Positions 51,370 to 63,960 are shown, numbered from the stretch's first letter. The stretch: 64,000 nucleotides of DNA from Geobacteraceae bacterium (GCA_009773645.1 WSYB01000001.1:224644-288643), one strand, 5' to 3'. The notes: generated by a model not told the origin, from the letters alone. Numbers and translations: made by a program.

Positions 51370-51813
51370 TTTTTGGATTTTGTAGACGCGACCCATACAT
51401 ACCATATGGTGATTGATCTTTATGGGCCGACATTCTACCCGAACACGATGAAAACGGCGGATGAGCGTTTTGACTGGGGGAAGAAAGAACTTGAAAAGAA
51501 GGTCAACCATCCGAAGTTTTATCAGTTTTTCGCGGTCCACGAAACCGAGGCATGGCTTCTGGCCGATCCGGACCTTTTCCCGATTGAAGTAAAGAAGGCC
51601 TTGCCTGCTAAGGCCGTGAACCCGGAAACGGTCAATTTCGACGAGCCGCCGGCGAAGCTCCTGGAACGGCTTTATTCCCAGAAGACCGGTCGCAGGTACA
51701 AGAAAGTCACCAACGGCAGGGAGCTTTTCGGGAAGCTTGACCCGAATCTTGCCTACGGCAAGTGTCCCCGGCTTAAGGAGTTGTTGGATAAGATGCTGGA
51801 GCTAGCCGAATGA
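51370..51813 (+). pseudogene. DUF4276 gene lacking its 5' part
   Basis: The frame encodes about 146 residues of the DUF4276 (TOPRIM-like) family, including FFAVHETEAWLLADPDLFP and the C-terminal RELFGKLDP. Full members are about 200 residues and begin with a conserved V-x-x-E-G-x stretch, missing here. Only a TTG with no ribosome site is available as start. It ends with an ATGA overlap into the SMEK gene. Together with the ATPase remnant at 50504 it forms a broken ATPase/DUF4276 pair split by the toxin-antitoxin genes. A shortened functional protein cannot be excluded. Confidence 0.65.
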
Positions 51814-52775
51814 ACAGATCGCACTATTTCAACTACATCGAAGATAGACTATCTTACCTCGCCACACGAATTGAAGTCCGCGGCAAGCTGAACATTCTCG
51901 ATCTTCACCTACACTCCGAGAATTTCTACCTCCATTTCTTCAACGAGTTGTTTGGCTGGCAATTGCAGAATTTAAACACCGTCAAACTGAATGCAGAAGC
52001 AATTGACCTGATAGACCACAAAAACAAAATTGTTGTGCAAGTCTCCGCGACGGCGACCAAGGAAAAGGTGGATTCGGCGCTTGTAAAAGACCTCTCCTCC
52101 TATGCCGGATATGCCTTCAAATTCATATCGATCTCCAAAGACGCAAGCGCATTGCGCGGCAAGAGCTTTGTCAATCCGCACAATCTGAGCTTCGATCCCC
52201 AGAAAGATATCTACGATGTCACCTCAATTCTGAAAGTTATAAGTGGTCTCGGCGTTGACGACCAGCGGCGTATTGCTGGTTTTATCAAGAAGGAATTGGA
52301 AGCAGAAGTCGATCCGATCAAGCTGGAGTCGAATCTTGCCGCCATCATCAATATCCTTGCCAAGGAAGACTTGAGCAAGGACGCTACACCTGTTGAAACG
52401 ATTCCTTACGATATAGACAAAAAGATTGACCATAATAACCTTGATGCCGCCCGCGGCATTATCGACGACTACAATGTCCACTATAGCCGGGTTGCCAGGA
52501 TTTACACCGAATTCGACAAGGAAGGCAACAACAAGAGCATGTCCGTGCTGGATGCGATACGCCGTGATTATCTGGCACACAAGGCTCGGCTGAGTGACGA
52601 CGATCTGTTCTTCAGGGTTGTCGAATGCGTGGCCGAAAGGATTCAAAACAGCACAAATCATGAGCCCATGCCTTACGAGGAACTGGAGCTTTGTGTGAAC
52701 ATTCTGGTGGTGGACGCGTTTATTCGCTGCAAGATATTCAAAAATCCGGTAGGATACGCCCATGCTGCTTCCTGA
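51810..52775 (+). CDS. SMEK-domain protein, effector candidate of a three-component ABC (ABC-3C) system
   Basis: Protein of 321 residues. The N-terminal 110 residues match the SMEK-domain pattern: LNILDLHLHSENFYLHFFNE, then AIDLIDHKNKIVVQVSATAT and KEKV, which reads like a restriction-endonuclease-type core (D-x(n)-V-Q-V-S). The rest is helical. In ABC-3C conflict systems such a protein is the effector, held by a small middle component and a DUF2326 ATPase, both of which follow here with overlaps of 14 and 10 bp. Nuclease activity is inference. Confidence 0.75.
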   Translation: MNRSHYFNYIEDRLSYLATRIEVRGKLNILDLHLHSENFYLHFFNELFGWQLQNLNTVKLNAEAIDLIDHKNKIVVQVSATATKEKVDSALVKDLSSYAGYAFKFISISKDASALRGKSFVNPHNLSFDPQKDIYDVTSILKVISGLGVDDQRRIAGFIKKELEAEVDPIKLESNLAAIINILAKEDLSKDATPVETIPYDIDKKIDHNNLDAARGIIDDYNVHYSRVARIYTEFDKEGNNKSMSVLDAIRRDYLAHKARLSDDDLFFRVVECVAERIQNSTNHEPMPYEELELCVNILVVDAFIRCKIFKNPVGYAHAAS

Positions 52776-52989
52776 CAACGTCCACCCGGAACAGAGTATC
52801 TACTATAACGGCGCCTTCGTGCTGCAGGCGCTCCGCGAGCGTCGCGTCATGGATTTGCTGGATTTGTACATGAGCACCCAGACGTACCGGCAGATGACCA
52901 TGCCCGTCTTCGTATTGTGTTTGGACTGGCTGTTTTTGTTGAATCTGGTCAGCTTGAACGAGCAGGGGGGCGTTGAGCTATGTTCCTGA
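52762..52989 (+). CDS. ABC-3C system middle component (MC6-like)
   Basis: A 75-residue helical protein: MLLPDNVHPEQSIYYNGAFV, then LYMSTQTYRQMTMPVFVLCL and DWLFLLNLVSLNEQGGVEL. The size, the Q-S-I-Y-Y-N-G start and the position between the SMEK protein and the DUF2326 ATPase match the small middle components of ABC three-component systems. It overlaps both neighbours, so the three proteins are made in step. Confidence 0.75.
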   Translation: MLLPDNVHPEQSIYYNGAFVLQALRERRVMDLLDLYMSTQTYRQMTMPVFVLCLDWLFLLNLVSLNEQGGVELCS

Positions 52990-54710
52990 AGTCCCTGACC
53001 ATTTCAAGCCATGCCGAGGTAATCCGCGAGATCGTATTCCACAACGGCATCAACCTGATTGTCGATGAGACCCCGAACATCCAGGGTACGGAAACCGGTA
53101 ACAACGTGGGGAAGACCACGGTGCTCATGCTGGTGGACTTTTGTCTGGCTGGGGATGCAAAACAGATATATACCGATCCCGAGCATAAAAAGCAGGAGTA
53201 CAAGCTGGTAAAGGATTTTCTGTTCGATAATGGGGTATTGATTACTTTGGTGCTCAAGGAGGATTTAGCCAGGGAAAGCTCCCGGGAAATCCGCATCGAG
53301 CGCAACTTTCTGCCGAGAAAGCGGAAGATCCAGAGAATAAACGGCGAGGCCAAGACCGACGACGAATTTGAAGAGGCGTTGACCGACCTCCTCTTTCCCG
53401 GCCATTACGGCAAAAAGCCGACCTTCAGGCAGATCATCTCCCACAATATCCGTTACAAAGACCTGAGCATCACCAATACCCTCAAGACCCTGGATCGCTA
53501 CACCAGCGACGCCGAGTATGAAACTCTCTATCTCTTTTTGCTGGGGTGCGAATTCGATCAGGGAGATACCAAGCAGGAGTTGTTGACGCAGATTCGCCTG
53601 GAAGAAAACTTCAAAACCAGGCTGGAAAAGAATCAGACGAAATCGACGTTTGAAACGGCGCTCGCCATCCTGGATGGGGAAATAGAGGCCCTGAACCGGC
53701 GTAAGTCGAATTTCAATCTGAACGAAAACTTCGAGGCTGACCTGGACAAGCTGAACCAGGTTAAATATCAGATCAACCTGGTAAGCTCGGAAATCGGCAG
53801 GCTGAACATTCGGCGCGATCTGATCACCGAAGCGAGGCAGGACCTGGAAAAAGGCGCATCCCACATCGACCTGCGGCAACTGGAGCAGATTTACCGGCAG
53901 GCGACCGACCGGATAGCAGGCATTCAGAAGACCTTTGAGGACCTCTGCACCTTTCACAACCGGATGATTGCGGAAAAGGCCCGGTATATCGCCAAGGACC
54001 TGCCGAGGCTTGACGCGGATACCAAGGCCAAGTCGGAGCATTTGAGCAGGCTCTTGGAGGATGAGGCTGTGTTGTCAGCGTCGATCACCCGCAGTGAATC
54101 GTTTGAGGAGCTGGAAAAACTGATCTCCGAACTTAACGAGAAGTACCGGAAGAAAGGGGAGTATGAAAATATTATTCAGCAGTTGTCCGAGGTGGATGCG
54201 GATTTGCAGTCGCTCAACAGACGCCTGGATGCTATCGACAATGCGCTCTTTTCGGAAGAGTTTGAGCAGAGAATCAAGGATCAAGTCAATAAATTCAACC
54301 GCTATTTCGCATCCATTTCCCAGACCCTCTATGATGAACAGTATGCTCTGAAGGTCGATCCGACCGAAAACAAAAAAGGTCAGCGTTTGTACAAGTTCAG
54401 CGTTTTTGACACCAACTTTGCGAATCTCAGTTCGGGGAAAAAACAGGGGGAGATTTCATGTTTTGATATTGCGTACACCCTGTTTGCCGATGAGGAGAAT
54501 ATTCCTTGTCTGCACTTTTTGCTGAATGACAAGAAGGAATTGATGCATGACAATCAACTCCTAAAGATTGCCCAGTTGGTGGACCAGAAAGGGATTCAGT
54601 TTGTGGCGTCGATTCTGAAGGATAAGCTGCCGGAAGAGTTGAACAAGGAAGAATATTTTGTGGTGAAGTTGTCGCAGGGGGATAAGTTGTTTAGGATCGA
54701 AAGGTTTTGA
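52980..54710 (+). CDS. DUF2326 ABC-type ATPase of the ABC-3C system
   Basis: SMC/Rad50-like ATPase of 576 residues. Walker A GTETGNNVGKTT (36-47) at the N-terminus, long coiled coil (about 190-430, many Leu/Glu/Lys heptads), signature NLSSGKKQGE (483-487 core) and a C-terminal Walker B-like CLHFLLNDKKELM region. The usual acidic pair after Walker B is not obvious. Its last 249 bp are repeated at 58775-59023 with about 88% identity. Codon use is like the chromosome core, unlike the AT-rich genes after it. Confidence 0.85.
   Translation: MFLKSLTISSHAEVIREIVFHNGINLIVDETPNIQGTETGNNVGKTTVLMLVDFCLAGDAKQIYTDPEHKKQEYKLVKDFLFDNGVLITLVLKEDLARESSREIRIERNFLPRKRKIQRINGEAKTDDEFEEALTDLLFPGHYGKKPTFRQIISHNIRYKDLSITNTLKTLDRYTSDAEYETLYLFLLGCEFDQGDTKQELLTQIRLEENFKTRLEKNQTKSTFETALAILDGEIEALNRRKSNFNLNENFEADLDKLNQVKYQINLVSSEIGRLNIRRDLITEARQDLEKGASHIDLRQLEQIYRQATDRIAGIQKTFEDLCTFHNRMIAEKARYIAKDLPRLDADTKAKSEHLSRLLEDEAVLSASITRSESFEELEKLISELNEKYRKKGEYENIIQQLSEVDADLQSLNRRLDAIDNALFSEEFEQRIKDQVNKFNRYFASISQTLYDEQYALKVDPTENKKGQRLYKFSVFDTNFANLSSGKKQGEISCFDIAYTLFADEENIPCLHFLLNDKKELMHDNQLLKIAQLVDQKGIQFVASILKDKLPEELNKEEYFVVKLSQGDKLFRIERF
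54462..54710 (+). repeat. left copy of the 249-bp direct repeat flanking the kinase cassette
   Basis: Inside the DUF2326 gene, covering its last 83 codons including the stop. The partner is 58775-59023, in the same direction, 4.3 kb away. The sequence after each stop codon is unrelated, so the repeat covers only the coding end. Confidence 0.85.
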
Positions 54711-54799
54711 ATAATTGAGATAGGGCGAACAGGGGAATGGCAGAAACAAACCTGACACTGAGACTTCTCCTCAGATGCTATCGTGGGAGCTATGAATAA

Positions 54800-56203
54800 A
54801 TGGACTCAGTTCGTGCAACAAGAATGACAAATGAACTGCTTAACCAGTTTATTAACGACTGGCAGCTCGTTGAGTATTGTGGCGCCGGGAAATCTGCACT
54901 TGTTTTTAAAGCTGTACGTGGTGACACAACCGCAGCAATCAAATTATTCGATCCAGAGCTTGTAGAAAAGTTTGGGAAAGAAACACAAAAAGCAAGAATT
55001 GAACGAGAGCGTGAGTTAATAGGCAAGGGCCATCCTCATCTAATTAATATTATAGATGGAGGCGAGGATATTGATAAGCAATTACTTTATGTGGCAATGG
55101 AGTACATTGATGCTCCAAATCTTGCAGATGTCATTGAGGATATCCCCCGAGAAAGAATCCGACCAATTATTGCACAAATCGCAAGTGCTGCGAAGTTTTT
55201 GGAAGAATTAAACCTGGTTCATAGAGATATTAAACCTGATAACATCGTTATTGATGAAAAATTTGAAACAGCTATTCTTCTTGACTTGGGCGTTATAAGG
55301 CCGTGCGGCGTTAGCGGTTTAACTGATGGTAGTGGAAAATTCTTTGTGGGGACCTTGCAATATAGCTCACCAGAATTTTTGTTTCGCACAGAAGAGGATT
55401 CTACAGAGGGATGGCGTGCTGTTACATTCTATCAACTCGGTGCAGTTCTTCATGATTTAATAATGCGAAAAAGGATTTTTACAGAGTTCCAAGACCCATG
55501 GGCAAGGCTTGTTGAGGCAGTAAAATATGAAGTGCCAAAAATTGAAGCTCCAGATGTATCTCCAGAGCTTATTTTGCTATCTCAAAACTGCCTTCAAAAG
55601 GACGTTAATCTGCGGAAAAGGCTGGTAACATGGGATGATTTTCAGCAGCATGATAAAAACCTATCCTCGGTAGCTGGGTCAAAAGAAAGAATCAGAAAAC
55701 GGCTACTTGTTGCTGCTGAGGCACCTAGTTTTGATGATGCTGAGGCAGAGCAGAAGGAACGTCTAACCAGAAGGGTTGCAAATGAAATTCAGGCAAAGCT
55801 ACAAGAAATTGTGAGGCAAGAATGTCTGGAAAGCGGTCTTTTCCCTCCGCTGGTTATTCACGAATTTGTGTCAGAATCCCCTAACACGACAGGGTTTGCA
55901 ATTCGATTCTCTGCTTCAAAAAAATTCGGTCTGCATCACGATTTGTGTGTTAATTTCAGAGTGCAGATTCTTGACTATCAGTCGAAAGCTATAGAAATCG
56001 GTTCTAGTGCTCATTTGTGTAATAGCGGAGCAAGTTCGACGCTTGAAAATTTAAACACTATATTTGAAGGCGGTTATTTAGAGGCTGTCGTAAAGGAGCG
56101 CCTTCAGCAGGTATTGTATTCTTCACTAGATTGTGCTCAACTCCTTCAAATTCCTGATAATGCTCCAGATGGCGTTGTTGTTCTTGCCTTGGAAGAGGGG
56201 TAG
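54800..56203 (+). CDS. serine/threonine protein kinase with unknown C-terminal domain
   Basis: Eukaryotic-type kinase of 467 residues with an apparently intact active site: Gly-loop GAGKSALVFKA (28-38), K48 in AAIKLF, catalytic HRDIKPDN (141-148) and DLG (162-164) in place of DFG. The kinase domain ends near 295. The rest (about 310-467) has a charged helical part and a beta-rich end (GFAIRFSASKKFGLHHDLCVNFRVQ) that I do not recognise. No membrane segment. First of three tightly packed genes with low GC content; the helicase gene starts 2 bp after its stop. Probably signals with the other two in a defence-like module. Confidence 0.82.
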   Translation: MDSVRATRMTNELLNQFINDWQLVEYCGAGKSALVFKAVRGDTTAAIKLFDPELVEKFGKETQKARIERERELIGKGHPHLINIIDGGEDIDKQLLYVAMEYIDAPNLADVIEDIPRERIRPIIAQIASAAKFLEELNLVHRDIKPDNIVIDEKFETAILLDLGVIRPCGVSGLTDGSGKFFVGTLQYSSPEFLFRTEEDSTEGWRAVTFYQLGAVLHDLIMRKRIFTEFQDPWARLVEAVKYEVPKIEAPDVSPELILLSQNCLQKDVNLRKRLVTWDDFQQHDKNLSSVAGSKERIRKRLLVAAEAPSFDDAEAEQKERLTRRVANEIQAKLQEIVRQECLESGLFPPLVIHEFVSESPNTTGFAIRFSASKKFGLHHDLCVNFRVQILDYQSKAIEIGSSAHLCNSGASSTLENLNTIFEGGYLEAVVKERLQQVLYSSLDCAQLLQIPDNAPDGVVVLALEEG

Positions 56204-56205
56204 AA

Positions 56206-57360
56206 ATGGATACATGGTGGAAAAATCTAGCAGATCTCAACGAAGAACAAACAGAAGTAATCGGGCTTCCTCTTGAGGGGAGCTATTTAATTCAAGGACC
56301 ACCAGGATCAGGGAAAACAAACCTTCTGGTCCTTCGTGCCAACTACTTGACCATGGCTGGCAAGGATAATCTATACATAATTGTCTTTACCAGAACGTTG
56401 CAAGATTTTATTGCTATGGGAGGTGGTAACTACAAGTTCCCTTCATCAAAAGTTGTCACTTCTACTAAATTCTATCAGGACCTTCTTTATCAGTACGGCG
56501 TAGAATGCAATGCACCTGATAATTTTACCGATGCTCGCACGTATTACATTGAAATGGTCAACGATCTCATTTTAAAGAAAAAGTTGAGCAAAATTATTGA
56601 TGTAATTCTACTTGATGAGTCTCAAGATTACCTTCCTGAAGAGGTGGGTATTTTCCAACGGCTCAGCAACTCCATATTTGCGGTTGCAGACTCTCGTCAA
56701 AAAATTTATCGAGGTGAAGATTCAGTAAGCTTATTAAAAAGCATCGTAACAAAAACCTGCAATCTTCAATTCCATTATAGGAACGGTCGTAAAATTTGCA
56801 ATCTTGCCGATGCAATAGCAAAAGATTCCAGTGAATTTAAATTATTAACTCCAACATCAAATTATAACGAAGCAGCTAGGCCATCATCAGTAGAACAATA
56901 TTGCCTAGATAGCATTAAGGCTGAGGCCAAGGAGATAATCAAACGGTTGGACATTCAACTGAAGGCGTACCCTGGTGAAAAAATAGGTATTGCATGTCCA
57001 AGGATTGAAGAGTTAAATGAAGTTTGGGAGGAAATCGCAGCATCACCATTTGGTCCCATGTCAATTCTACAAAAAGTCCCAACAAATTCTCCTTTTGAGC
57101 CTGAAAAGAGAATATGTGTATGCACATTTCATTCTATGAAGGGCTTGGAATTTAGAGCCCTGCACCTAGTAGGATGCGAATACCTGAAGAAATTTCAACA
57201 CCAGCGAAATATGGCCTACACTGCAGTCACTAGAGCAAAGACCTCGCTTTCGATCTATCATTCTGATACTCTCCCTGGATACTTTCAAGGCGCCTTAAAC
57301 TCACTTTTACCACTACCCGATCTTCCAAAACTAGAAGATGTATTTAAAGGTAAATCCTAA
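56206..57360 (+). CDS. minimal SF1 (UvrD/Rep-like) helicase-type ATPase
   Basis: A 384-residue P-loop protein with the SF1 motifs: Walker A GPPGSGKT (31-38), motif Ia VFTRTLQDF, Walker B VILLDESQD (133-141), motif III-like VADSRQKIYR, HYRN, then motif V TFHSMKGLEF and motif VI YTAVTRAKTSL. The long 1B and 2B insertions of UvrD are missing, so it is about half the usual length. DNA unwinding is doubtful; a nucleic-acid-dependent ATPase switch is more likely. It overlaps the third gene (TAATG). Confidence 0.85.
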   Translation: MDTWWKNLADLNEEQTEVIGLPLEGSYLIQGPPGSGKTNLLVLRANYLTMAGKDNLYIIVFTRTLQDFIAMGGGNYKFPSSKVVTSTKFYQDLLYQYGVECNAPDNFTDARTYYIEMVNDLILKKKLSKIIDVILLDESQDYLPEEVGIFQRLSNSIFAVADSRQKIYRGEDSVSLLKSIVTKTCNLQFHYRNGRKICNLADAIAKDSSEFKLLTPTSNYNEAARPSSVEQYCLDSIKAEAKEIIKRLDIQLKAYPGEKIGIACPRIEELNEVWEEIAASPFGPMSILQKVPTNSPFEPEKRICVCTFHSMKGLEFRALHLVGCEYLKKFQHQRNMAYTAVTRAKTSLSIYHSDTLPGYFQGALNSLLPLPDLPKLEDVFKGKS

Positions 57361-58718
57361 TGTGGATTCTTCGGATAAACAGAAGTCAGTTAGTTGAGAT
57401 TTTTAAGGACGGTGGCGGTAGCTGGCTCAATAGCTATGCACCCTCTTATGTTGATATTCTGCCAGGTGAACCATGCGATAGTAATAATTTTTACCTTGTA
57501 TGGAACTCTCAACCTTCCAAGAATTATTGCATCCCAATTGCAATAATTGTGGATAAAGAATTTCAAAAGGATTTTTTCGCCTGGTCATTGACTTATCTTT
57601 CTCACATATCTCCCCTATCGTCTTATTGTAGAATTATTGATTCAAATACCTTTAACAGTTTGGTTGGGTGTACGCCTACAAATATTAAGCTTCCAGAAGC
57701 TGCTTATGTCTCAGTCATTGCCGCCGAACTTCTTGGCTATGTTGACGGAAATCTTGGGAATATAAATATAACTCACGGTAACGCTTACTCCAGCACGTTT
57801 TCTTTTGCTAGGGTAAGAGCAAAATTTTATCAATACCGAAACGCCTTCCCTGATGACCTCTCAAATGTTTGGTGGAGAACAAGAGCCCTCTCAAACAAGA
57901 AAATTAGTAGGGACTATTTAGGGACATTGAGTGAGATTTGGACGTGCCTAGATGCTTTTGATAACGATCTTCAATGCACGAGTTTGATTAGTGTTGTAGA
58001 ACCTAGTGTTATCTCTGCCCTCGAAGAATACTCTATTAAGGGAGTTATTTCTCCTGCCACCATAAAGAAGCTTTATAAAAATCAAATCATTCTACATGAG
58101 CCCGAATTAGGTATAAATGGAACCTTAGAAAGCAGGGTTACATCCGTTGAAAAGATACTTTCTCAACTCGGCAATCGTCGCACAAACGATAAGAATATTT
58201 CTTTTATTTCTGCCTATATTGTTTCACAGATCAGTCCTGGGACACTTGACCATTTTGAAATTTTGAAACCTTACTCAGAAAACTTTTCATCTGCATATTT
58301 GTGGTTAGGCGTCTTTGCTGGATTACATCCGCAAAGCCGTGTTTTTCAGAGTTTGGGCAATTTATCTAATCGAATATTTAGGGATTTACATCGAGACGAA
58401 CATATACTAGAACGGCCACAATCTGATATTTCATACGTTGAACTTGATATTATTTCGAGTCACATAAAAGACCTTCGTTCTATACCATCACGACACCACG
58501 GATATCTTGACATTGAAATAGCACCATTTATTGTTTCTACTATAAAAATATCACGTAATGACGACAACATACAACCTGATCTTTTTTCAAAAGAATCTCT
58601 TTCAAACAAGGATATTCAATTCGCACTCTATGAGCTAGAAGATTCCTTACGTCGTGCTGAGCAAGTAAAAAAGCGCCTATTTTCTTTTTTGGGGGGATCG
58701 ACCAGGGGTAGAAGATAG
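57360..58718 (+). CDS. unknown protein of the kinase-helicase cassette
   Basis: 452 residues, no domain I recognise, no signal peptide or membrane span. The N-terminal 120 residues are mixed alpha/beta (VDILPGEPCDSNNFYLVWNS), the middle is rich in hydrophobic and Ser residues, and the end is helical and basic (RRAEQVKKRLFSFLGG). It starts inside the stop region of the helicase gene, so it is translationally coupled. Codon use and GC content are like the kinase and helicase genes and unlike the chromosome core. It may be the effector of the cassette. Confidence 0.7.
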   Translation: MWILRINRSQLVEIFKDGGGSWLNSYAPSYVDILPGEPCDSNNFYLVWNSQPSKNYCIPIAIIVDKEFQKDFFAWSLTYLSHISPLSSYCRIIDSNTFNSLVGCTPTNIKLPEAAYVSVIAAELLGYVDGNLGNINITHGNAYSSTFSFARVRAKFYQYRNAFPDDLSNVWWRTRALSNKKISRDYLGTLSEIWTCLDAFDNDLQCTSLISVVEPSVISALEEYSIKGVISPATIKKLYKNQIILHEPELGINGTLESRVTSVEKILSQLGNRRTNDKNISFISAYIVSQISPGTLDHFEILKPYSENFSSAYLWLGVFAGLHPQSRVFQSLGNLSNRIFRDLHRDEHILERPQSDISYVELDIISSHIKDLRSIPSRHHGYLDIEIAPFIVSTIKISRNDDNIQPDLFSKESLSNKDIQFALYELEDSLRRAEQVKKRLFSFLGGSTRGRR

Positions 58719-58774: not shown

Positions 58775-59023
58775 TTCGATATTGCGTACACCCTGTTTGC
58801 TAATGAGGAGAATATCCCCTGTCTGCACTTTCTGTTGAATGACAAGAAGGAGTTGATGCATGATAATCAGCTCCTGAAGATTGCCCAGTTGGTGAACCAG
58901 AAAGGTATTCAGTTCGTGGCGTCTATTCTGAAGGACAAGCTGCCGGAAGAGCTAAATCGGGAAGAGTATTTTGTGGTGAAGTTATCGCAGGGGGATAAGT
59001 TGTTTAGGGTTGAGGGCTATTAA
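58775..59023 (+). pseudogene. second copy of the 3' end of the DUF2326 ATPase gene (249 bp)
   Basis: Aligns without gaps to 54462-54710: 219 of 249 bases identical by my count (about 88%). The encoded 82 residues differ at six positions and most base changes are silent. It starts abruptly at TTCGATATT, preceded by AGACGCGACCC (58761-58771), and keeps its own stop TAA. The frame can be read from ATG 58757 (88 residues) but has no Walker A part. It is either the displaced original end or an end brought in by the inserted cassette. Confidence 0.85.
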
Positions 59024-59083: not shown

Positions 59084-60217
59084 ATGAAGAAATTTTTGAA
59101 GGGACCTGTTTGCACCACAATTTTCATTGCAATCTCAATTGTATTTACTTCAATTATAAGTTCCGCCGCGAATACTGGCTCTGCAATAAAAATTGGTGCG
59201 GTATTACCTTTGACTGGTGATGGGGCGGTTTATGGATTGAAAGAAAAGGAAGGAATAGACTTAGCTGTCCATGAAAAAAACAATTCAGGTGGCGTAAAAG
59301 GACGCAAAATTGAAATCATCTATGAGGATTCAAAAGGAGAACCGGCTAGCGCCGTTTCAGCAACTCAGAAGCTCATCGCTCAGGATAAAGTAAATGTCAT
59401 TATTGGCGATGCGTTTAGTTCTCCAACGCTTGCAATGGTCCCGATAATAGACAAGAGCAAGGTGTTACTTATGTCGCCCACTGCATCAAGTCCTAAGCTT
59501 ACGAATTCAAGCAAATACTTTTTCCGTGTCTGGCCTTCTGATATCGCAGAAGGTTCAGTGGCGGCAGAGGTAGCCGTTAAGCGGCTGAAACTTAAGAGAA
59601 CTGCCATTCTTCACGGTAACAATGATTACTCAATTGGCTTAAGAGATGTATTCAAAAGTGCTGTTATAAAGTATGGTAAGGAAGTTCCTGTTGTCGAAAG
59701 CTATAATGAAGGTGACACGGACTTTAGAACCCAATTGTTAAAGATCAAATCAAATAATCCCGACGGTATATACCTTGCCGGTTATGCTAAGGAGTTCGCC
59801 AAGATCCTTGTTCAGGCGAAAGAATTAAACATAAAAACGAAGTTCATCAGTTGCGGCACCTTCCATGAGCCGGAAGTTTTGAAAATTGCAGGCAACGCGG
59901 CAGAAGGAGTGGTGTTCGTTCAGCCATTTTTCGATAAAGACAGTAATGATAAGAATATTGTTAAGTTTGTAAAGAGTTATGAAGCAAAGTTCAAAAGCGA
60001 AGCAGGTGTTTACGCTGCACATGGATATGATGCCGCACTTGTTGTTCTATCTGCGATGCAAGGTGGCCTAAGTTCTGATGACGTAAGAAAATCGCTAATA
60101 AAATTAAAGAACCTTCAAGGTGCAACAGGTAAAATTACCTTTGAAAAGGGTGGGGATGTTATTAAGCAGTTTCGAATAATGACCGTTACAAATAACACGT
60201 TTGCAGAATATAAATAG
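59084..60217 (+). CDS. LivJ-like periplasmic branched-chain amino acid/amide binding protein
   Basis: Periplasmic binding protein of 377 residues. Signal peptide (KKFLKGPVCTTIFIAISIVF..., cleavage near SSA-A) and a full type I periplasmic-binding fold: KIGAVLPLTGDGAVYG at the start, NVIIGDAFSSPTLAMVPI, RTAILHGNNDYSIGLRDVF, DGIYLAGYAKEFAKIL and GYDAALVVLSAM. No ABC permease or ATPase gene is near, so it is not an ordinary uptake system here. Good AGGAGG site. It is 8 bp from the membrane protein gene, which suggests it presents a ligand to that protein or serves as a sensor. Low GC content. Confidence 0.88.
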   Translation: MKKFLKGPVCTTIFIAISIVFTSIISSAANTGSAIKIGAVLPLTGDGAVYGLKEKEGIDLAVHEKNNSGGVKGRKIEIIYEDSKGEPASAVSATQKLIAQDKVNVIIGDAFSSPTLAMVPIIDKSKVLLMSPTASSPKLTNSSKYFFRVWPSDIAEGSVAAEVAVKRLKLKRTAILHGNNDYSIGLRDVFKSAVIKYGKEVPVVESYNEGDTDFRTQLLKIKSNNPDGIYLAGYAKEFAKILVQAKELNIKTKFISCGTFHEPEVLKIAGNAAEGVVFVQPFFDKDSNDKNIVKFVKSYEAKFKSEAGVYAAHGYDAALVVLSAMQGGLSSDDVRKSLIKLKNLQGATGKITFEKGGDVIKQFRIMTVTNNTFAEYK

Positions 60218-60225
60218 GGCTTTAT

Positions 60226-61821
60226 ATGTCAATATTTCGTGATGCTTATAAGAAGATCCGCTTTAGAGTAACACAGAAATTCTATGAGCTGGCGTTTTGC
60301 TTTACATTATGTATAAGCTCTTTTGTTTTCTTATGTTCACCTATTGACATACCTCCTGATTTGAAGATAGTTTTGTTCTCTATTTTATTGTTTACATCAG
60401 TAATAGCTGTTGTTGTAACCGTATTTGAAACCGGATGGACAATCATATCTTTGACAATAATACTTGCATCAAGCATAGCGATGGTTTGTTTTATGTATCC
60501 CCAAAATCAATCTTTTACTAGAGTTAGAGTTTCTGCGATATTGCCATCCAATTCCCTTCCAAACCAATCACGAAAGCAACATATTGTATTTGATGTAATA
60601 TCCACTACTGCCCTTTCACCGCATATTGGTAATCAGGCAGCAGTGAAATCATTTGAGGATCACGGAAAAGTTGTAATAACTTTCATTGGCTTAATCATAA
60701 CAATACTCGCGCTGCTATACGGCGAAAAAATGAAGAATTTGTTTCAAATGGACAAAAAGGTGGACGAAATTTCACGACTAACTATTGCAAATGCCGAACT
60801 TGCATTGACTCACCTTCCAGATGTTTCAGAAAGTCATCAAGTGTCAAAATGTGCTTATGATACTATAAAATTAATTGACAATATTGTATTTACTGAAGGC
60901 AGTTATGTTTTAGATTATTTAGACAAAATAGGTAACGGCGCAACCCTGCGTTTTTCACGCGCAATCAAATACTATGCTGATGGACGTTTTGGCGAAACTA
61001 TAACTGAATTAGAGGACTTAATAAAGCATAGAAAAATTAATCCTAATTTGTTGTGTGAAGTGTATTATTGGCTTGGCATTGCTTATAGGCAGAATGGAGA
61101 AGGAGATAAGGACAATTATCCTAAATCAATAAAAGCATTTACTGCTTTATATGCACAAAAAAACAGTGTTCAAAAAATTAATGCAAAATATGGTATTGCG
61201 TTAACTTTATTTTCTTTGCACAAAACCAACATATGGTATGGTTCAGATTCAAAGTATCAGAATAATGTATTGAATAAATTGATAACGATACGAAATTTTG
61301 CGGATAATAAATTCACTTGGCCAACATTACAGAATGAGAACTTTTGTTTGGAAGGAGCTAAACTACTTATAAATGACGTACTCGAGTCAAATCCATTCCA
61401 CTATTCAGCAATACTTTATTCTATACTACTTGACGGGTTCAAAAAATATAACGGATGCAATGAAAAGCCTCCTGTAATTAAATTAACCGATATGTCTAGC
61501 GATGAAGAACGTACCAAGACAAAAATGAGGCTTGTAACGCTACTAACTTTTTTGAGAAAGGAGGGGCATAAAAATTATAATATTAAGGCAAACTACTTCG
61601 TCGTCGAGGCATTAGTTCTATATTCACTAGGACAAAGTAAGCAGATAGAGGCATTGCTCAAACATGCTGCCTCATCTTCCAACCTTTTTAAGGAAGTTAT
61701 GAAAAATAAGGCGACTATTTTTTCAGACATAAGCATTAAACAAATACAGATTGATGAATTCAATAAACAAATAGATAACTTGAAGAAAACACTTTTGCCT
61801 GAGGTTGTTTGTGCCAGTTAA
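60226..61821 (+). CDS. membrane protein with helical repeat (TPR-like) cytoplasmic region
   Basis: Unrecognised 531-residue protein. Three membrane segments lie in the first 85 residues (LCISSFVFLCSPI, VLFSILLFTSVIAVVVTVF, ISLTIILASSIAMVCFM) and a fourth near 145-160 (VVITFIGLIITILALLYG). The remaining 370 residues are helical; ALTHLPDVSESHQ, RFGETITELEDLIKH and LLCEVYYWLGIAYRQNGEGD look like TPR units. It overlaps the radical SAM gene by 11 to 17 bp, so the two are coupled. Possible receptor for the binding protein upstream. Very AT-rich. Confidence 0.65.
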   Translation: MSIFRDAYKKIRFRVTQKFYELAFCFTLCISSFVFLCSPIDIPPDLKIVLFSILLFTSVIAVVVTVFETGWTIISLTIILASSIAMVCFMYPQNQSFTRVRVSAILPSNSLPNQSRKQHIVFDVISTTALSPHIGNQAAVKSFEDHGKVVITFIGLIITILALLYGEKMKNLFQMDKKVDEISRLTIANAELALTHLPDVSESHQVSKCAYDTIKLIDNIVFTEGSYVLDYLDKIGNGATLRFSRAIKYYADGRFGETITELEDLIKHRKINPNLLCEVYYWLGIAYRQNGEGDKDNYPKSIKAFTALYAQKNSVQKINAKYGIALTLFSLHKTNIWYGSDSKYQNNVLNKLITIRNFADNKFTWPTLQNENFCLEGAKLLINDVLESNPFHYSAILYSILLDGFKKYNGCNEKPPVIKLTDMSSDEERTKTKMRLVTLLTFLRKEGHKNYNIKANYFVVEALVLYSLGQSKQIEALLKHAASSSNLFKEVMKNKATIFSDISIKQIQIDEFNKQIDNLKKTLLPEVVCAS

Positions 61822-63856
61822 GACATTATTAATATTTCCGCCTAATTTCTCAATTGATCAACCATACCTTAGCACTCCAATGCTCAAGGCATTTCTTCGT
61901 ACTAATGGGCAAAAATCAGTCGATCAATTTGATGCTAACATTGATGCCTTTTATTTTTTTACGAAAGTACAATTTATAAGAAAATGTCATAGTACAGTAG
62001 TTAAAAAAATTGAAAAGTTGGAAAGTGGGCTTTTCAGTTCAAGCAGAGCAAAGAAAGAAATATACAATTTCCTGTGCGAGGCAGACCTTTATTTCACTGT
62101 TGTCATCAAAAATATTAACAAATCTATCTCTTATTTCACAAGCAATGTATTTAGTGATATTGAAGAATACAACTTCCACAAAAACGTCATCGAACGTGCA
62201 TTTGATATAATATCTGCCGCTTATTACCCTACACAGATAAATACCAAAGATTTTGCTATGCGATTCTCTAATCAAGTCTTTAAAGAAATTATACAAGCGA
62301 CTAAATCAAAAGAAAATCCATATATCGAATATTACAACGAAGCATTAATCGGCAGGATCGGGGATAAGGGTTACAGTGTGGTTGGTGTTTCAGTCACAGC
62401 ACTGTCTCAGATTATACCTGCGCTCACCCTTGCCGCCCTACTTAAGAAACAACTCCCACGGGTTAAAATTATTTTTGGCGGGCAGGTTTTTAATCGGCTA
62501 GAAGAAAACATAAAACAATTACCTGTATTTTTTAGGTATGTGGATTACCTCATTCTCGGCGAAGGAGAAACTCCCCTTCTTGAATTACTCGGCCACATTG
62601 AAGGCATAAAAACCATTTCAGAAGTACCCAACCTCATGTACTTCGACAAGGGAAAAAAGCTTGTTGTAGAAACGGAAGCAAAGAGCCAGGAAGATGTTTC
62701 TCAATTTCCCTCACCTGACTATGATGGACTACCGCTTTCTCGCTATCTTTCTCCAGCGCCTGTATTGTCGTACCAGCCCGCTCGTGGTTGTTATTGGAAT
62801 AAATGCACGTTTTGTAACCAATATCTTATCGCAGGCAAAGGTTTGCGAAGTAAAAATGCTCAGAATATAGTTAAGGATCTGAAGTTTTTGTCGAAAAGAT
62901 ATAATACCAGCTATTTCTCCATCGTAAACGAATCACTTCCGCCAGCGACACTGCGAAGCATGTCTGAAGTGCTGATTAAGGAACAACAGAATATTAAGTG
63001 GTATGCCGGGGCACGATTTGACAACGCCTTTGATCGACAGACGTTGGAATTGATGAAAAAAAGTGGTTGTGAAAAGCTTTATTTAGGTCTTGAAAGCGGT
63101 TATCAGGCAACACTTAATGAAATGAATAAGGGTATTATCCTTAAAAATGTAAGGCAGATATTGCATGCCTCATCTGAGATTGGCATAGGCATTCATCTAT
63201 TTATAATGATAGGTTTCCCGACGGAAACTGAGGCGGGGTTCGAATATTCCAGACAATTTATCAGAGAGATTGTTAGTCTCGTTGATAAAAATAAGTTTTC
63301 TCATTATATAAGTGTCTACCAATTGAAGCCGCAAACCCCTGTGATTAAACAGCCAGATCAGTTTAACATAAAAACCGTCTTTAAAAGAGAAGGTTATGAC
63401 CTTGAATACCTATATGGTTATGATCGTTTGGATTCGCCGTTAAATGTCGATTACGAACGGGCTAGGGGTGAATTAGAAATGATGATAGACGACCTAGTTG
63501 GCCCTAAATCGTATCCGGAAAATATCAGCCACTTCCTAACGTTTAACAACACTCAGGTTGAACGGAAAGAAAGTAAACCTACTGCTTATTATATAGGCCC
63601 CCATTTGGCAGGGAAATTATTTAAAAATTACGCTGGGTTAGCTGTGACATTCTTGATTTATGATTTCTGCTGTGATAATCTATTTACTACATCTAGCGAG
63701 GCAGTTATGCGCTACCTGCTGTCGTTAAAAGAGGATTTTACAGACGATGAATTCGTTGCCAAGCTTGTCAACGAATTCAAAATAGAGGCAGATGATGTGA
63801 ATTTATTTTTTAATGATTTGAAAAGAAATCACATAATAAAAAGGAGATTGTCATGA
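61811..63856 (+). CDS. B12-type radical SAM protein with possible PqqD-like C-terminal domain
   Basis: Radical SAM enzyme of about 681 residues (GTG 61811; TTG 61805 also possible). A helical N-terminal region is followed by a cobalamin-binding-like Rossmann domain (about 190-270, VVGVSVTALSQ, KIIFGGQVF, LILGEGETPLLELL); the DxHxxG cobalamin motif is not seen. The radical SAM core has the cluster-binding set C-x4-C-x2-C (GCYWNKCTFCN, Cys 327, 332, 335), one residue longer than usual, and KLYLGLESG. The end (about 630-681, SLKEDFTDDEFVAKLVNEF ... LKRNHIIKRR) resembles a PqqD-like peptide-recognition domain. Its stop overlaps the peptide gene (ATGA). Confidence 0.8.
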   Translation: MPVKTLLIFPPNFSIDQPYLSTPMLKAFLRTNGQKSVDQFDANIDAFYFFTKVQFIRKCHSTVVKKIEKLESGLFSSSRAKKEIYNFLCEADLYFTVVIKNINKSISYFTSNVFSDIEEYNFHKNVIERAFDIISAAYYPTQINTKDFAMRFSNQVFKEIIQATKSKENPYIEYYNEALIGRIGDKGYSVVGVSVTALSQIIPALTLAALLKKQLPRVKIIFGGQVFNRLEENIKQLPVFFRYVDYLILGEGETPLLELLGHIEGIKTISEVPNLMYFDKGKKLVVETEAKSQEDVSQFPSPDYDGLPLSRYLSPAPVLSYQPARGCYWNKCTFCNQYLIAGKGLRSKNAQNIVKDLKFLSKRYNTSYFSIVNESLPPATLRSMSEVLIKEQQNIKWYAGARFDNAFDRQTLELMKKSGCEKLYLGLESGYQATLNEMNKGIILKNVRQILHASSEIGIGIHLFIMIGFPTETEAGFEYSRQFIREIVSLVDKNKFSHYISVYQLKPQTPVIKQPDQFNIKTVFKREGYDLEYLYGYDRLDSPLNVDYERARGELEMMIDDLVGPKSYPENISHFLTFNNTQVERKESKPTAYYIGPHLAGKLFKNYAGLAVTFLIYDFCCDNLFTTSSEAVMRYLLSLKEDFTDDEFVAKLVNEFKIEADDVNLFFNDLKRNHIIKRRLS

Positions 63857-63960
63857 AAACGAAAGAAATCCAAAAAATCAAGCTGGAAGTAAAGAAGATC
63901 GAAAAACACTCTCCCCAGAATATGAAGAATGAAATGGAACATCCTAAAGTCCAAAGGTAA
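63853..63960 (+). CDS. 35-residue peptide coupled to the radical SAM gene, candidate precursor
   Basis: Short frame from ATG 63853 to TAA 63960, overlapping the radical SAM stop by ATGA, with AAGGAG 8 bp upstream. The peptide is Lys/Glu-rich (N-terminal MKTKEIQKIKLEVKKIEK, C-terminal HSPQNMKNEMEHPKVQR) and has no Cys, Gly, Ser/Thr-rich core or membrane segment. An amphipathic helix followed by a short polar tail is compatible with leader plus core of a modified peptide. A further precursor beyond the window is possible; 63961-64000 holds only an 8-codon frame. Confidence 0.5.
   Translation: MKTKEIQKIKLEVKKIEKHSPQNMKNEMEHPKVQR

Follow-up and report, generated by a model that had tools for sequence, protein, structure and literature searches.

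A gene for a cobalamin-type radical SAM enzyme was identified in the genome of a Geobacteraceae bacterium (GCA_009773645.1), inside an apparent operon for an amino-acid-type importer and coupled at its stop codon to a 35-codon frame. The leading, unproven reading of this arrangement, put forward tentatively from the sequence, is that the enzyme modifies the coupled 35-residue peptide. The enzyme itself is an orphan, real and otherwise unseen. The window is the whole stretch of DNA analysed (64,000 nucleotides, WSYB01000001.1:224644-288643), and all positions are counted from its first letter.

Table 1. Positions of the features discussed in the text.
Feature	Position	Strand	Remarks
livJ-like periplasmic binding protein gene	59084..60217	+	377 aa; opens the apparent operon; Peripla_BP_6 E = 1.4e-64
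Orphan membrane protein gene	60226..61821	+	531 aa, with four hydrophobic segments; about 360 residues lie outside this part
Radical SAM enzyme gene, cobalamin-type (class B)	61814..63856	+	680 aa; Pfam B12-binding and Radical_SAM
B12-binding domain	62339..62587	+	Residues 176-258; PF02310 E = 7.6e-9, above cut-off
Radical SAM core, C-x4-C-x2-C	62774..63259	+	Residues 321-482; PF04055 E = 1.3e-13, above cut-off
C-terminal extension of the enzyme, about 100 residues	63551..63853	+	The nearest relatives lack it; may be a winged-helix/PqqD-like tail
Ribosome-binding site of the small frame	63841..63846	+	AAGGAG
35-codon frame MKTKEIQKIKLEVKKIEKHSPQNMKNEMEHPKVQR	63853..63960	+	ATGA-coupled to the radical SAM gene (4-nt overlap)

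The enzyme and its apparent operon

The enzyme frame starts at a GTG (61814), with a TTG at 61805 as the alternative. Its product carries the B12-binding domain N-terminally, followed by the radical SAM core. Both domain matches (Table 1) agree with the preliminary description, which had proposed a radical SAM protein with C-x4-C-x2-C ligands and a cobalamin-type domain lacking the His motif. The cysteines C326, C331 and C334 were invariant among 13 aligned sequences (the enzyme and 12 relatives, alignment A3), all of which have the x4-x2 spacing in common, and no DxHxxG motif was read in the B12 domain of the enzyme. Judged by sequence and predicted fold, this is certainly a real cobalamin-type (class B) radical SAM protein, beyond chance. 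Its B12 domain is shown by homology to be of the type carrying methylcobalamin and its core to be of the [4Fe-4S]/SAM type, and the predicted chemistry is most likely that of a methyltransferase.

In the AlphaFold model (mean pLDDT 66) the body is usable and the tail is not. The best structure matches of the model were OxsB (Z 19.0 over 399 residues, 3.9 Å), TsrM (16.9), AprD4 (16.7) and TokK (15.8), and the nearest solved proteins by sequence were OxsB, AprD4 and 9ccb (MgmA methylase). The fold of residues 1-590 is thus like that of OxsB, TsrM and TokK, but these are only 14-18% identical to the enzyme and their substrates differ. The top NCBIfam match was TIGR04479, the PhpK family radical SAM P-methyltransferase, at 137.6 bits against a cut-off of 600; no phosphinate pathway genes are present at the locus. 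The second-best match, TIGR03975 (RiPP maturation radical SAM C-methyltransferase, rSAM_ocin_1), covered residues 111-527 with 136.9 bits, far under its cut-off of 281.85 bits. A relative associated with a molybdoenzyme reached 137.6 bits on TIGR03975, so the model cannot separate the two and gives no pointer to RiPPs.

The genes from livJ to livF, in the order livJ, membrane protein, enzyme, peptide, livH-livM-livG-livF, form one apparent operon for an amino-acid-type importer. The first three junctions are an 8-nt gap, an 8-nt overlap, between the membrane-protein and enzyme frames, and a 4-nt overlap. The livHMGF genes lie on the contig directly past the end of the window and are followed by a MarR-like regulator, so named from reading its sequence. 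Approximately 130 bases separate the peptide from the start of the LivH-type permease, which is spread over two frames (BPD_transp_2, 4.4e-9 and 7.8e-30). Between the peptide frame and livH no terminator-like site was found, and the search for RNA elements there returned only implausible sub-threshold matches to animal families. The match to Peripla_BP_6 supports the binding protein as the LivJ-like operon mate named earlier. The second proposed mate, a four-helix membrane protein, does have four hydrophobic segments (residues ~22-40, 48-66, 72-90 and 149-167), but the remaining residues, which give a weak TPR/ARM hint, had gone unmentioned. No relative of this protein was found among 141 genomes of the order, 395 genomes sampled from the phylum and 72,556 plasmids.

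Just past the end of the window (L009:734-1605), a frameshift divides livH in two. It falls within or close to a stretch of nine T, and the G+C content climbs there from approximately 0.38 to 0.6; either a sequencing error or a genuine break could explain it. When a recombination junction within livH was looked for, neither half had a close match in the family. None of the livJ, membrane-protein, enzyme and livH genes had a close match in the other 47 family genomes (for livJ, none at E <= 1e-60), which suggests from sequence comparison that this DNA was acquired or is long-diverged. Directly upstream, at 51373-58718, is a defence-type run with HEC-01B-like, Aga REase/PDC-M68A-like and PDC-M68B (DUF2326) genes, a Ser/Thr kinase like PD-T4-6/MAD6, a UvrD-like helicase and an orphan protein of 452 aa. 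Immediately 5' of livJ, at 58775-59008, lies a second, truncated copy of the 3'-end of the DUF2326 gene; its 234 bases match 54462-54695 at 90% identity, and it may be the border of an insertion or of a recombination. As candidate defence genes, the enzyme, the membrane protein and livJ gave no match in PADLOC.

The position of the enzyme gene between livJ and livHMGF, uninterrupted by a terminator-like site between peptide and livH, would fit an enzyme that modifies an amino-acid-like small molecule imported by LivJ/LivHMGF, the small frame being a regulatory or accessory protein or untranslated. The closest solved structures point the same way, as they include enzymes of small molecules or carrier-bound substrates (OxsB, AprD4, TokK and CysS). 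Such a role leaves the tightly coupled peptide start and the extra tail unexplained, however; the livJ-enzyme-livH arrangement was seen in no other genome and the transport link is putative. We consider it nearly as likely as modification of the peptide.

The coupled small frame and the C-terminal tail

The claim that a 35-residue peptide is coupled at the stop codon of the enzyme was confirmed: the frame overlaps this stop as ATGA, and AAAAGGAG stands approximately 7 nt 5' of the peptide ATG. At the local base composition, the chance of at least 35 open codons from a given ATG is approximately 0.06. The codon score of the frame lies within the range of true genes (27% of the windows taken from genes fall below it), and it is reached by 18% of stop-free windows read out of frame. 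The peptide is therefore probably translated, but the statistics alone are not decisive; the coupled start and the ribosome-binding site are better evidence for the frame than length or codon score. The same figures, together with the lack of any homologue, could also mean that the frame arose by chance and that the substrate of the enzyme is not readable from the locus. The strong and well-spaced ribosome site, the ATGA coupling and a codon score in the range of real genes argue against this, and we regard a chance frame as improbable.

No Pfam or NCBIfam family fitted the peptide, with one NCBIfam match at E = 1, and a search of 395 phylum genomes gave no relatives of it. The preliminary description had expected a conserved small frame behind homologous radical SAM genes. 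None similar was found at 22 loci of the phylum and the own genome (one of which ends at a contig edge), at the 14 of 80 genome-contig loci checked, or at the 2 plasmid loci checked. All of these homologues are at most 36% identical to the enzyme, and the comparison is therefore a weak test.

The end of the enzyme had likewise been described as resembling a peptide-recognition (RRE) domain, to be checked by HMM search, and this could not be substantiated, as no match was significant. The last 101 residues scored 12.4-12.6 bits against PqqD (PF05402; E ~0.2, 0.21 over all Pfam), where the cut-off is 23.4. PqqD was one of just two Pfam matches to the tail and ranked behind an unrelated family, and nothing in NCBIfam matched. 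The thresholds of RRE-Finder are 15, 25 and 35 bits with its own models (PMC7470986), whereas the tail was scored here on Pfam PF05402. A home-made profile, built from six tails and PqqD proteins, gave the tail 3.4 bits, which is not significant by HMMER yet beats 4,960 of the 5,000 shuffled sequences and every one of 81 real decoys; a profile-profile comparison returned a probability of 4.6%. Modelled alone, the tail contained helices only and no beta strands at low confidence (pLDDT 50), and it was similarly poorly modelled in the full-length enzyme. Among tails from RiPP-type clusters, that of L031 had the same PqqD score (E = 0.2), and two other RiPP-associated tails matched different winged-helix-like or unrelated models. 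A PqqD-like RRE at the end of the enzyme is accordingly worded here as suggestive, not established.

Relatives of the enzyme and their neighbours

Strict peptide patterns found no close relatives of the enzyme, either in the genomes of 84,980 species or among viral contigs. Among 277 genomes of its class, and again in its family including the 47 other genomes, only the window gene and a copy on contig C44 of the host assembly were found. This copy was considered as a paralogue and rejected, since the tree shows it and a Nitrospirae FW300 gene to be almost the same (branches 0.005 and 0.021); by sequence, contig C44 is probably contamination. The 6.5 kb contig (L010) carries its Nitrospira-type radical SAM gene together with NarJ- and EB_dh-type genes.

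In an alignment-based scan, the best relatives were 33-36% identical over residues 2-542, and nearly all of the best 80 matches were Nitrospira-type enzymes with 31-36% identity. This clade (for example Nitrospira moscoviensis NZ_CP011801, L065), alignable over approximately 540 residues, shares with the enzyme the N-terminal region, the B12 domain, the radical SAM core and the C-x4-C-x2-C motif. Its members differ in being approximately 590 residues long, without the C-terminal tail, and those checked are followed by other genes and no small frame. Molybdopterin, iron-sulfur, NarJ-type and ethylbenzene-dehydrogenase-type (EB_dh) genes adjoin the relatives in L118, which was read fully, and in L010, read partly. 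The B12 radical SAM gene is widespread in the Nitrospirota (L033-L112, L118:22-12035), where the neighbours read belong to nitrite-oxidoreductase/type-II DMSO-reductase-like operons, and it is found in such an operon also in genome G136. Nothing relevant was found in the literature on a radical SAM gene linked to liv or nitrite-oxidoreductase genes. The best-scoring relatives and their molybdoenzyme neighbours would agree with an enzyme that arrived at the locus by chance and modifies a protein or cofactor as these linked relatives would, but this is the least probable of the alternatives, as the window gene lacks molybdoenzyme neighbours, forms a long branch without supported sister and has the extra tail.

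Some more distant relatives possess a tail. Two of them (L012 and L031) lie beside a nif11-type radical SAM/SPASM gene and a Gly-rich peptide of 65 aa; the locus (L115:5245-10903, genome G282) contains tandem B12 radical SAM genes with PqqD-like tails, the peptide ends in GGGGGVGIA, and the whole is likely a RiPP cluster. A further tailed relative (L018) has as neighbours a radical SAM gene and genes for a UPF0489 protein and for a PqqD protein (E = 7.7e-18). Its locus, L116:2548-7488, encodes UPF0489 and PqqD proteins, the B12 radical SAM enzyme, a further radical SAM protein and a peptide of 54 aa. In L117:458-3766, where the proteins were named by eye, UPF0489 and PqqD-like proteins adjoin a B12 radical SAM gene. 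UPF0489 is presumably the peptide-arginase family, and both loci are likely RiPP clusters. Peptide arginases are described as RiPP enzymes in two papers (PMC10028609, PMC12703449). The tandem genes of G282 and the Rhizobium phaseoli protein WP_081284283.1 (L122) have the domain order of the enzyme plus a PqqD-like tail, but are only 30-31% identical to it, are adjoined by a different peptide or by none, and have no adjacent liv genes. On the R. phaseoli plasmid (NZ_CP013525.1, L122:1278-7094), genes for an ATP-binding protein, an S8 peptidase and the B12 radical SAM protein with a PqqD-like tail (by eye) are consecutive.

Peptide modification as the leading reading

Modification of the coupled peptide was placed first because the small frame is coupled and well initiated and because the enzyme has an extra tail; we hold it at somewhat under even odds. 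Beyond the class of the enzyme, we infer both the peptide step and the link to the transporter. The C-terminal tail would grip the helical, Lys/Glu-rich N-terminal half of the peptide (residues 4-18), and the enzyme would methylate a residue of the second half (SPQNMKNEMEHPKVQR), or modify it otherwise by radical chemistry. Encoded on the same apparent transcript, LivHMGF, the LivJ-like protein and the membrane protein with its four segments would then sense or import the product or the amino acids from its breakdown.

The enzyme class, the apparent operon, the ATGA overlap, the well-spaced AAGGAG, the coding-like codon score and the scores of the tail against shuffles and decoys speak for peptide modification, and the tailed relatives in RiPP-type clusters weakly favour a RiPP. 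Against it stand the peptide without relatives, the tail match under all cut-offs, the frame-length chance of approximately 6%, and nearest enzyme relatives that are tail-less, peptide-less and, where read, beside genes of the type-II DMSO-reductase family. No obvious leader peptidase or exporter was found among the genes adjoining the enzyme (livJ, membrane protein, livHMGF, MarR-like and defence-type genes). The missing protease and exporter, the lack of a conserved precursor and the different setting of the nearest relatives weigh against labelling the locus a RiPP system. Of the candidate RiPP system first proposed, the anatomy stands, with tailed relatives in RiPP-type clusters on its side, but neither a conserved small frame behind the homologues examined nor a significant RRE match was found. 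A new kind of RiPP-like system within the importer operon, in which the enzyme with its highly divergent fused recognition tail modifies the Lys/Glu-rich peptide and the product works with the LivJ-type receptor, the membrane protein and LivHMGF, is unlikely; such a product may, for example, serve in scavenging or signalling and be re-imported.

For genome mining, the scores on TIGR03975 call for caution, as similarity to this model alone does not predict a peptide substrate. Should the enzyme act on the 35-residue peptide, this would be a further class of precursor, one in which neither leader nor core motifs can be recognised, and RiPP-type chemistry would here be tied to an importer instead of an exporter.
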